Positions 39,751 through 41,769 of a stretch of 64,000 bases of DNA are shown here, piece after piece. This DNA is from Catenuloplanes niger (lineage in GTDB: Bacteria > Actinomycetota > Actinomycetes > Mycobacteriales > Micromonosporaceae), in assembly GCF_031458255.1 (NCBI RefSeq), contig NZ_JAVDYC010000001.1, positions 4,535,001 through 4,599,000 on the forward strand, written 5' to 3'. The translations under genes were made by a program, and so were the position numbers. Numbering within the stretch: position 1 is the stretch's first letter; every line of letters starts with the position of its first letter. The notes under the pieces were generated by a model. That model was not told the DNA's origin. It saw nothing but the letters and a program-made list of their open reading frames with translations, and did no database searches.

Positions 39751-41769
39751 TCAGTCCGGGTTGAGGACGGCCAGCAGGGTGCCGGCGGCGACGTGGATGC
39801 CGGGCTGGACCGGGACCGAGGCGACCACGCCGGCGGACGGGGCGTGGACCGGGTGTTCGACCATCGAGGACTCGAGCGTCAGCAGCAGGTCGCCGGCGCG
39901 GACGCGCTGGCCGGGGACGACCATGACGCGGGCGATGGCGCCCGGCAGCGGCGCCGTCAGCGAACCGTCGGTCAGCTCGGACGGTCGCGGGAAGCGGGGG
40001 AGTTCGGTGAGGGCGACCGAGCCCTCCGGGCTGTCGACGTAGGAGACGTCCTGGACCCGGTGGACGCCGAAGGCGAGGCGGATGCCGTTGACGTCGAGGA
40101 CGACCCGGTCGGGGGCGGCGGAGACGACGGCGACCGGCGGGTGGTCGTCGGTCAGCGGTGGGGCGCCGAGGCCGGCCAGGTCGAGTTCCTCCGGGTCGAC
40201 CGCGCGGACCCACCAGCCGGCCAGTTCGCCGGTGCGTTCCAGGCGGTAGCCGACCTCGACCGGGCCGGCCGGGCCGTCGTAGACGGTGATCTGGGCGCCG
40301 CTGGGGACGTTGCGCCAGCCGGACGGGATGGTGGCCAGCACGGGACTGGCCGCGCGGCGGGTGGCGGCACCGGCCAGGGCGGCGGCGAGGCAGGAGACGC
40401 GGACGGCGTCGACCGAGGAGAGCAGCGGCGCGAAGACCTCGGGGTGCCGGTCGAGGAAGTTGATGTCGACGTTGCCGGAGCGGAACGCGGGGTGCCGCAG
40501 GACCCGTACCAGCAGGTCCCGGTTCGTCACGACGCCGTGGACGTGTGAACGCGTCAGGGCGGCGGCGAGCATGCGGGCGGCCTCGTGCCGGGTCGGGGCC
40601 CAGGCGACCAGCTTGGCCAGCATCGAGTCGTAGTAGACGCCGACCATCGAACCGTCGGCGACGCCGGTGTCGAGGCGCAGGCCGGGCTGCAGCAGCGGTT
40701 TGAACGAGCCGGCCACGTCCGGGATGTGGAAGCGGTGCAGCCGGCCGGTGGACGGCAGCCAGGCGTACGCGGGGTCCTCGGCGCAGAGCCGGACCTCGAT
40801 CGCGTGGCCGCGGACCGGCGGCGGCGCGTTCATCGGCAGCGGGGAGCCCTCGGCGACCAGCAGCTGCAGGCGCACCAGGTCGAAGCCGCCGACGCACTCG
40901 CTGGTGGCGTGCTCGACCTGCAGCGCGGTGTTCATCTCCAGGAAGAAAAAGTCGCCGGACGGCGCGAGCAGGAACTCGACGGCACCGGCACCGACGAAGC
41001 CGGACGCGCGGACCACGGCGGTCGCGACCGTGCACAGCTGGGCGCGGAGGGTGGGCGCGACCGCGGGGGACGGCGTCTCCTCGATCAGCTTCTGGTTGCG
41101 GCGCTGGATCGAGCACTCGCGCTCGCCGAACGTGATCACGCCACCGGTGGAGTCCGCGACCACCGGGATCTCGATGTGCCGGGCCCGCTCCACGTACGGT
41201 TCGGCCAGCGCGGTGCCGTTGCCGAACAGGCCGGCGGCCTCCCGCCGGACCGCGGCGAACGCGTCCGCGAGCGTGTCCGGGTCGCGGACGAGGCGCATCG
41301 CCCGTCCGCCGCTGCCGACGTCCGCCTTGACCAGCACCGGGAAGCCGGGCACGTGCTCCGGTTCGCCGAACGCGGGCAGCATCGGCACGCCCGCGTCGGC
41401 CAGCAGCGCACGCGACTCCAGCCGGGAGGTGAGCAGCGCGATCGCCTTGGGCGGGGCACCGACCCAGGTCAGGCCCGCGTCGATGACCGCGGCCGCGAAG
41501 TCGGCGCTGTCGGCGAGCAGGCCGTAGCCGGGGTGCACCGCGTCCGCGCCGGTCTTCCGCGCGGCACCGAGGATCAGGTCACCCCGGAGGTACGTGGCGG
41601 TCGGCGCGTTCCCCGGCAGGTGCACCGCGTAGTCGGCCTCGGCCACGTGCGGCGCCTGGGCGTCCGCGTCGGAGTAGACCGCGACCGTCTCGATGCCGAT
41701 CAACCGGCAGGTCGCGAAGATCCGCCGGGCGATCTCTCCGCGATTGGCGACCAGGAGTCGTCGGATCAT
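39751..41769 (-). CDS. Biotin carboxylase/carrier-like protein lacking the biotinyl lysine
   Basis: 672 residues laid out like an acyl-CoA carboxylase alpha subunit: biotin carboxylase (about 1-445, LLVANRGEIARRI, HPGYGLLADSADFA, SIQRRNQK), a middle region and a C-terminal biotinyl/lipoyl-like domain (about 600-672). Key residues differ from the family. The carrier motif EAMKM is ESSMV, with Met636 where the biotinylated Lys should be. EMNTR is EMNTA (Ala282 for the Arg292 of E. coli AccC). Lys116 is Arg116. The glycine loop reads KADVGSGGRAM. It therefore probably cannot carry biotin in the normal way. It lies 7 bases after the beta subunit gene and has GAGGAC before its ATG. Confidence 0.85.
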   Translation of the reverse strand: MIRRLLVANRGEIARRIFATCRLIGIETVAVYSDADAQAPHVAEADYAVHLPGNAPTATYLRGDLILGAARKTGADAVHPGYGLLADSADFAAAVIDAGLTWVGAPPKAIALLTSRLESRALLADAGVPMLPAFGEPEHVPGFPVLVKADVGSGGRAMRLVRDPDTLADAFAAVRREAAGLFGNGTALAEPYVERARHIEIPVVADSTGGVITFGERECSIQRRNQKLIEETPSPAVAPTLRAQLCTVATAVVRASGFVGAGAVEFLLAPSGDFFFLEMNTALQVEHATSECVGGFDLVRLQLLVAEGSPLPMNAPPPVRGHAIEVRLCAEDPAYAWLPSTGRLHRFHIPDVAGSFKPLLQPGLRLDTGVADGSMVGVYYDSMLAKLVAWAPTRHEAARMLAAALTRSHVHGVVTNRDLLVRVLRHPAFRSGNVDINFLDRHPEVFAPLLSSVDAVRVSCLAAALAGAATRRAASPVLATIPSGWRNVPSGAQITVYDGPAGPVEVGYRLERTGELAGWWVRAVDPEELDLAGLGAPPLTDDHPPVAVVSAAPDRVVLDVNGIRLAFGVHRVQDVSYVDSPEGSVALTELPRFPRPSELTDGSLTAPLPGAIARVMVVPGQRVRAGDLLLTLESSMVEHPVHAPSAGVVASVPVQPGIHVAAGTLLAVLNPD

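Follow-up and report, generated by a model that had tools for sequence, protein, structure and literature searches.

Geranyl-CoA carboxylase (GCC) and 3-methylcrotonyl-CoA carboxylase (MCC), both two-subunit biotin-dependent enzymes, are the described enzymes closest to the locus treated here. Excerpts of PMC4673880 describe their BT domain as bearing a hook that contacts beta, with the Trp of this hook buried in beta, and take the absence of an MCC-type three-residue insertion as the GCC-like state. The mycobacterial AccA2/AccD2 is a two-subunit complex without an epsilon subunit and is related to AccA1/AccD1, as stated in an excerpt of PMC4347857. Plant BADC proteins lack the AMKL motif and are ascribed roles in the assembly or inhibition of ACCase in an excerpt of PMC11926652; as far as such excerpts go, no closer earlier example of a Lys-less carrier is at hand.

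The window, meaning the whole analysed stretch of 64,000 nucleotides from Catenuloplanes niger, contains an alpha–beta pair with the same domain order and fold as GCC and MCC. Unlike these, the pair lacks the biotin-accepting Lys, the Arg of EMNTR, a whole Gly loop, the oxyanion-hole motifs of the carboxyltransferase (CT), and the pathway genes. AccA2/AccD2 is likewise a two-subunit acyl-CoA carboxylase, and its relatives in the comparison set have intact motifs. The alpha subunit resembles BADC, as excerpted, in being of carrier type and in the absence of the biotinylation motif from its carrier domain, which in BADC goes with a non-catalytic role in a carboxylase complex. However, BADC proteins are carrier-like proteins in their own right that belong to a living ACCase, whereas here the whole pair appears to be dead.

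Pseudoenzymes are known in many families. Among the open-access papers listed, which for Lys-less carriers means 12 of 551 matches, no dead two-subunit biotin-dependent carboxylase appeared; a pseudoenzyme listed in connection with biotin carboxylase is a tubulin ligase-like protein. We regard the present case as a pseudoenzyme built from an entire two-subunit carboxylase. In our preferred reading, to which we assign a probability of roughly 0.57, the pair forms a non-catalytic alpha–beta assembly, perhaps still ATP-binding, that is kept as a scaffold or regulator.

The alpha–beta pair of the window

The two genes and their altered motifs lie on the minus strand:

39751..41769, minus: alpha subunit gene, 672 aa, encoding biotin carboxylase (BC), BT and carrier (BCCP) domains with decayed catalytic features (translation, Pfam, AlphaFold2)
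39862..39864, minus: codon 636, ATG (Met), at the site of the homologues' biotin-accepting Lys (translation; K in 54/54 CT-intact family loci)
40924..40926, minus: codon 282, Ala instead of the EMNTR Arg (R in 80/80 named homologues)
41299..41322, minus: degraded Gly-rich loop, residues 150–157, DVGSGGRA (alignment to orthologues and named homologues)
41422..41424, minus: codon 116, Arg instead of a conserved Lys (K in 80/80 named homologues)
41777..43378, minus: beta subunit, CT fold, full length, active-site motifs absent (Pfam, motif alignment, AlphaFold2, Foldseek)
42122..42136, minus: GPAAY in place of the GAGNY of intact orthologues, the second oxyanion-hole motif of CT (alignment)
42812..42829, minus: VDVAAW in place of the TAGGAY of intact orthologues, the first oxyanion-hole motif of CT (alignment)

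The frame of alpha (41769–39751) is intact over 672 residues and comprises BC, BT and biotin/lipoyl carrier domains as judged by translation and Pfam; the first-pass annotation had called the gene long and intact, in agreement with the lack of an internal stop. The carrier motif is LESSMVEHPV, and the biotin-accepting Lys in (A/V)MK is absent from the alpha of the window (ESSMV) and from that of all five genomes of the genus. Both hallmarks of the BC domain are changed as well: EMNTR of the homologues is EMNTA, and the Gly loop KASAGGGGRG of intact orthologues is KADVGSGGRA, leaving DVGSGG. In 80 named homologues, the residues at positions 116 (K), 153 (G), 157 (G) and 282 (R) never differ; at position 636, 74 of them have K, five have R and one has a gap, the non-K cases being, we assume, mostly chains without a carrier. 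The four alterations that had been proposed for alpha are all real by translation and by comparison with these homologues: Met636 (ATG) for the biotin-accepting Lys, Lys116 to Arg, the Gly loop to DVGSG, and Arg292 to Ala. Codon 282 presumably corresponds to E. coli Arg292. Altogether, alpha (P0001) departs at 15/99 columns invariant in 31 homologues, with the next worst row at 4/103.

The beta gene (43378–41777) is the upstream neighbour of alpha on the same strand, separated by a gap of 7 nt; an alternative GTG start at 43420 would add 14 residues. CT-intact orthologues carry GNATAGGAY and GASYGAGNYGM, with small variants in some, and the window has GDAVDVAAW and GAAHGPAAYAM. Both motifs presumably form the oxyanion hole. 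The beta subunit is off at 13/71 columns invariant in 25 homologues; since two control rows are off at 9/80, this total is less exceptional than that of alpha, and what stands out is the clustering of the departures in the two oxyanion-hole motifs. The partner carboxyltransferase thus appears to be dead as well, which the first-pass annotation overlooked. Its suggestion of a pseudoenzyme becomes stronger than first claimed, because beta also lacks both active-site motifs. Its alternative of a system with a different acceptor is disfavoured: the CT site that would use the carboxylated acceptor is gone along with the usual place of biotinylation, which makes it unlikely that the pair works as a carboxylase on another acceptor.

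All folds expected of a biotin-dependent acyl-CoA carboxylase—BC, BT, BCCP and CT—are present as judged by Pfam, AlphaFold2 and Foldseek. The AlphaFold2 models have a mean pLDDT of 90.7 for alpha and 87.7 for beta. In Foldseek, the nearest solved folds are the alpha chains of PCC and MCC for the alpha model and MCC beta (3u9s_B, TM 0.95) for the beta model; GCC beta ranks lower than MCC beta among the matches of the latter.

Orthologues and ancestry of the pair

The orthologue search covered 150 family genomes, the window's own included, of which 105 matched at E <= 1e-120; one named 62% relative (L082) places the family as Micromonosporaceae. From the 104 other matched genomes, 96 primary loci and four secondary copies were examined, giving 97 primary loci with the window; G002, G023, G027, G038, G041, G062, G074 and G089, with partial or weaker matches, were left out. 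A locus was called decayed by the state of its CT. By this definition 54 loci are CT-intact, including g8 with one Gly replaced by Ala, and 43 are CT-decayed. The latter span 13 genera: g1 (the genus of the window), g9, g15, g16, g17, g19, g23, g28, g29, g33, g39, g42 and, with one of its two genomes, g43.

The intact orthologues adjoin AtuA. At the 54 CT-intact loci, AtuA and the downstream acyl-CoA dehydrogenase fadE12 were each detected 53 times, TetR 51 times and the upstream acyl-CoA dehydrogenase fadE13 31 times, the complete gene order being TetR, AtuA, dehydrogenase, beta, alpha, dehydrogenase. At the nearest intact genera, fadE13 is present at 0/1 (g37) and 1/6 (g31) loci. Probes covering about 6 kb per side, less where contigs end, found TetR, AtuA, fadE12 and fadE13 at 0/43 decayed loci, and none of the four at the g8 locus of the CT-intact class. 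In the Mycobacterium locus L047, which we take to be accA2/accD2-like, the genes run AtuA, dehydrogenase, accD, accA, dehydrogenase, hydratase. The intact beta of g37 lacks the three-residue insertion before the MCC Phe when aligned to the top five beta chains of known structure (3u9r, 9tps, 8j4z, 9yx0 and 4q0g); therefore, the geranyl-CoA type is indicated by the criterion given in the excerpts of PMC4673880. Judged from sequence and gene order, the pair appears to derive from a geranyl-CoA-carboxylase-like operon of an AtuA-type pathway; sister genera keep this operon intact. Replacement of the locus by lateral transfer is not favoured, because the kinase and Crp neighbours also stand at intact relatives.

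Genome-wide searches did not find AtuA in four of the five genus genomes, the window's own among them; the fifth (G006) has a low-scoring match elsewhere, at 85 bits and above the curated cut-off. Nor was AtuA found in the genomes searched from g8, g15, g23 and g33 or in one from g29. It is present in other decayed genera, mostly adjoining a second carboxylase, and the motifs are intact in all three such carboxylases examined (L212, L214 and L215). Genome G043 has two pairs of this family: a decayed one at the Crp locus (L183) and, elsewhere, a CT-intact one linked to AtuA (L213).

These second carboxylases are consistent with a decayed pair acting as a dominant-negative or assembly factor for another carboxylase of the same cell, by analogy with the roles that the excerpt of PMC11926652 ascribes to BADC proteins. 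However, the genome-wide search of the window's own genome found neither AtuA nor a second AtuA-linked carboxylase, the nearest other alpha matches there are 39–46% and the other CT matches 33–34% identical, and a GCC–MCC hybrid is reported not to form in the excerpts of PMC4673880. For the window we regard such a factor as quite improbable; a regulator of other carboxylases, as had been suggested, is possible, but its likeliest target would be the second AtuA-linked carboxylase that this search did not find.

Selection and domain conservation within the genus

The window's genome comprises 9.74 Mb in one contig and was compared with four congeners. All five genomes carry SR, DVGSGGRAM, EMNTA and ES(S/M)MVEH—ESSMV in three and ESMMV in two—and an alpha free of internal stops. 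The same losses in five genomes rule out a base-call error or an isolated mutation, for which homologues with EAMKM were to be the sign. Sister-genus orthologues do carry EAMKLEH, yet the loss is fixed in the genus and is therefore no isolated mutation.

Within the genus, the median dN/dS (NG86, five species) comes to 0.092 in alpha and 0.21 in beta, with a median dS of 0.28 for alpha; the comparison genes nth and crp give 0.225 and 0.00. In five CT-intact genera, the values are 0.10–0.41 for alpha and 0.09–0.20 for beta. This indicates purifying selection on both genes in the window's genus, with beta seemingly slightly less constrained than in most CT-intact genera and alpha not so. An ordinary pseudogene is disfavoured by dN/dS, and the earlier wording "not a simple pseudogene" accords with dN/dS and the open frames in five species.

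Stem-fixed changes, i.e., positions identical in g31, g37, g18 and g8 and altered in all five genus members, were counted per domain, with domain limits set by hand after Pfam. In g1 they amount to 4/76 in BC_N, 24/123 in ATP-grasp, 5/73 in BC_C, 0/82 in BT and 6/46 in BCCP (ATP-grasp versus BC_C and BT combined, p = 1.4e-5). The CT-intact control genus g10 has 5/123 in ATP-grasp and 6/82 in BT; the ratio of ATP-grasp to BT, 24:0 in g1 versus 5:6 in g10, differs with a Fisher p = 0.0003 in a comparison chosen after the counts were seen. The pattern recurs in part in g28 and g29 combined, with ATP-grasp at 13/123 and BT at 1/82 (p = 0.003), but with BC_N at 9/76 and BCCP at 1/46, and weakly in g15, which is represented by one genome. 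It was not found in g16/g17/g19/g42 (p = 0.82), whose BC and carrier motifs are whole and whose decay is confined to CT, or in g39 and g9 combined (p = 0.5). No signature common to all decayed lineages was found: the contrast is restricted to g1, g28 with g29 and, weakly, g15, and a role shared by all of these lineages is at most a conjecture. The dN/dS of the BT domain is 0.08 in g1, 0.17 in g16, 0.13 in g39 and 0.16–0.61 in five intact genera; it thus seems low in g1 and unremarkable in g16 and g39.

The conserved elements of the BT domain are as follows:

39976..40434, minus: BT domain, residues 446–598 (set by hand; Pfam BT_MCC_alpha 461–592), 0 stem-fixed changes in 82 positions (Pfam, stem comparison)
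40309..40320, minus: GWRN, residues 484–487, in the model's loop after the BT helix and before the following strand (AlphaFold2, locus alignment)

GWRN is kept in 43/43 decayed and 53/54 CT-intact loci. By its position in the model, its Trp would correspond to the hook Trp described in the excerpts of PMC4673880. A sequence search with the domain alone gave no solved BT domain as a match for that of the window. In the BC domain, alpha positions 148, 222 and 265 are kept in 43/43 decayed loci and position 278 in 41/43; all four are kept in the window. We take these residues to be the ATP and Mg ligands of BC, and the argument for an ATP site rests on these presumed roles.

A pair that is conserved yet catalytically lost suggests a new, non-enzymatic job for the complex. 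In the reading that we prefer, the pathway genes beside a geranyl-CoA-carboxylase-like pair were lost, beta lost its CT site, the BC domain was stripped of its Arg and Gly loop and, in the window's genus, the carrier of its biotinylation Lys. What persists under selection is the fold, most of the presumed ATP and Mg ligands, and the BT domain, which is expected to anchor alpha on beta. The sequences bear out the loss of catalytic residues and of context, the purifying selection and the conserved BT domain, whereas assembly, ATP binding and the role are inferred. The resulting alpha–beta complex, probably alpha6beta6 by analogy with GCC and MCC, may bind ATP, would be unable to transfer CO2, and could serve as scaffold or regulator, perhaps as a sensor or an assembly partner of another protein. 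Against this reading stand the weaker constraint on beta, the Thr of one genus genome at the presumed catalytic Lys227, and the decayed groups without the ATP-grasp and BT contrast.

Alternatively, the ATP-grasp and crotonase-fold sites might catalyse another, biotin-independent reaction. A neofunctionalised enzyme of this kind agrees with the retention of most presumed ligands and with the alpha tree, in which the g1 stem branch is long (0.25 changes per column) and the branches inside the genus are short. Against it, the motif changes differ among lineages and show no convergence, the presumed catalytic Lys227 is replaced by Thr in one of the five genus genomes, and both CT oxyanion-hole motifs are lost; we consider it improbable.

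Course of the decay and surroundings of the pair

All 54 CT-intact loci retain the Arg of BC together with the Lys of the carrier. Among the 43 decayed loci, 19 retain the two residues and 15 lack just the Arg; in 2, Thr replaces the Lys while the Arg stands; 5, which are the g1 loci, lack both; and 2 have the Arg and a gap at the Lys. Arg282 is thus kept in 23/43; CT Gly200 is kept in 1/43. Since Arg and Lys are kept in all CT-intact loci and variously lost in decayed ones, CT goes first, and BC and carrier follow in either order. In g8, the pathway context is lost and CT is nearly whole. The family accordingly displays graded stages, from the intact enzyme through loss of the pathway genes with CT nearly whole (g8), a dead CT, and a dead CT together with a dead BC, to the death of all three. 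These natural stages allow one to ask which non-catalytic property of a carboxylase complex is selected. Such genes would probably be annotated as acetyl- or propionyl-CoA carboxylase, which would lead to wrong entries in metabolic models.

The alpha tree (56 rows, with outgroups and secondary copies labelled intact) requires three changes for the loss of Lys, one for Arg and four for CT, and a single clade of decayed loci is not rejected (AU p = 0.40). The RpoB tree (46 rows, 8/11 match-less genomes left out) requires six changes of CT state; a single clade of decayed loci and g8 is rejected at p = 0.007, for a group named after the tree was seen and on a weakly resolved tree.

All 43 decayed alphas adjoin a beta, which is shortened in many. 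The g33 (L210) and g23 (L197) loci are likely pseudogene stages, with no carrier motif aligned in either alpha; a TAG lies inside the g33 alpha match and another in one g23 genome (G023). Match-less genomes gave 18 Crp matches, from which 16 stretches were examined, and alpha and beta are absent from the Crp locus in 16/16 of these genomes (no match at E <= 1e-120); the pair was lost or never present there. Together with the plain-pseudogene look of g23 and g33, this makes the pair dispensable for some lineages, so decay stays a rival: an unneeded pair would be gradually lost, and selection within genera would be a leftover or act only against harmful misfolding. The reduction of beta to about 378 aa in g19 and 395 aa in g17 fits such a course. 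Set against it are the alpha dN/dS of 0.09 across five species at the dS given above, the BT domain without stem changes, alpha frames that are open in 5/5 genus members and 14/14 g29 loci, and the retention of the pair while the flanking genes are gone on both sides. On balance, slow decay is unlikely.

In g16 (L143–L148, L151–L154 and L166), g17 (L169), g19 (L164) and g42 (L156), the BC Arg and the carrier motif of alpha are intact, beta is shortened to about 378–475 aa without CT motifs, and alpha–beta is inverted relative to Crp where Crp lies in the stretch. Perhaps these loci encode a living biotin carboxylase with a dead partner.

Directly upstream of beta lies a regulator gene:

43509..44186, minus: Crp-type cyclic-nucleotide-binding regulator, context gene (Pfam, neighbourhood)

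On the other side, positions 31867–37702 encode a Ser/Thr kinase, a class III cyclase that has AAA and TPR regions, and a small protein with no match in Pfam, so that cyclase and kinase on one side and Crp on the other flank the pair. A bolder form of the scaffold or regulator reading is tentative and, on present evidence, doubtful: a whole two-subunit carboxylase, in this genus and perhaps repeatedly in the family, would have been repurposed as a non-catalytic, ATP-binding structural or signalling complex that keeps its assembly surfaces, has discarded all three catalytic centres and is a candidate sensor for the cyclase, Ser/Thr kinase and Crp neighbourhood. As this neighbourhood is common to intact relatives, it is weak evidence for a sensor role. 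Many genomes of the family have kinase, cyclase and Crp close together, whether or not an alpha–beta pair separates them. Between the kinase and alpha, positions 38447–39629 carry an HTH_31/DUF5753 regulator gene (GC3 0.67, below its neighbours) followed by a DUF397 gene; the two occupy the place of the downstream acyl-CoA dehydrogenase of intact relatives.
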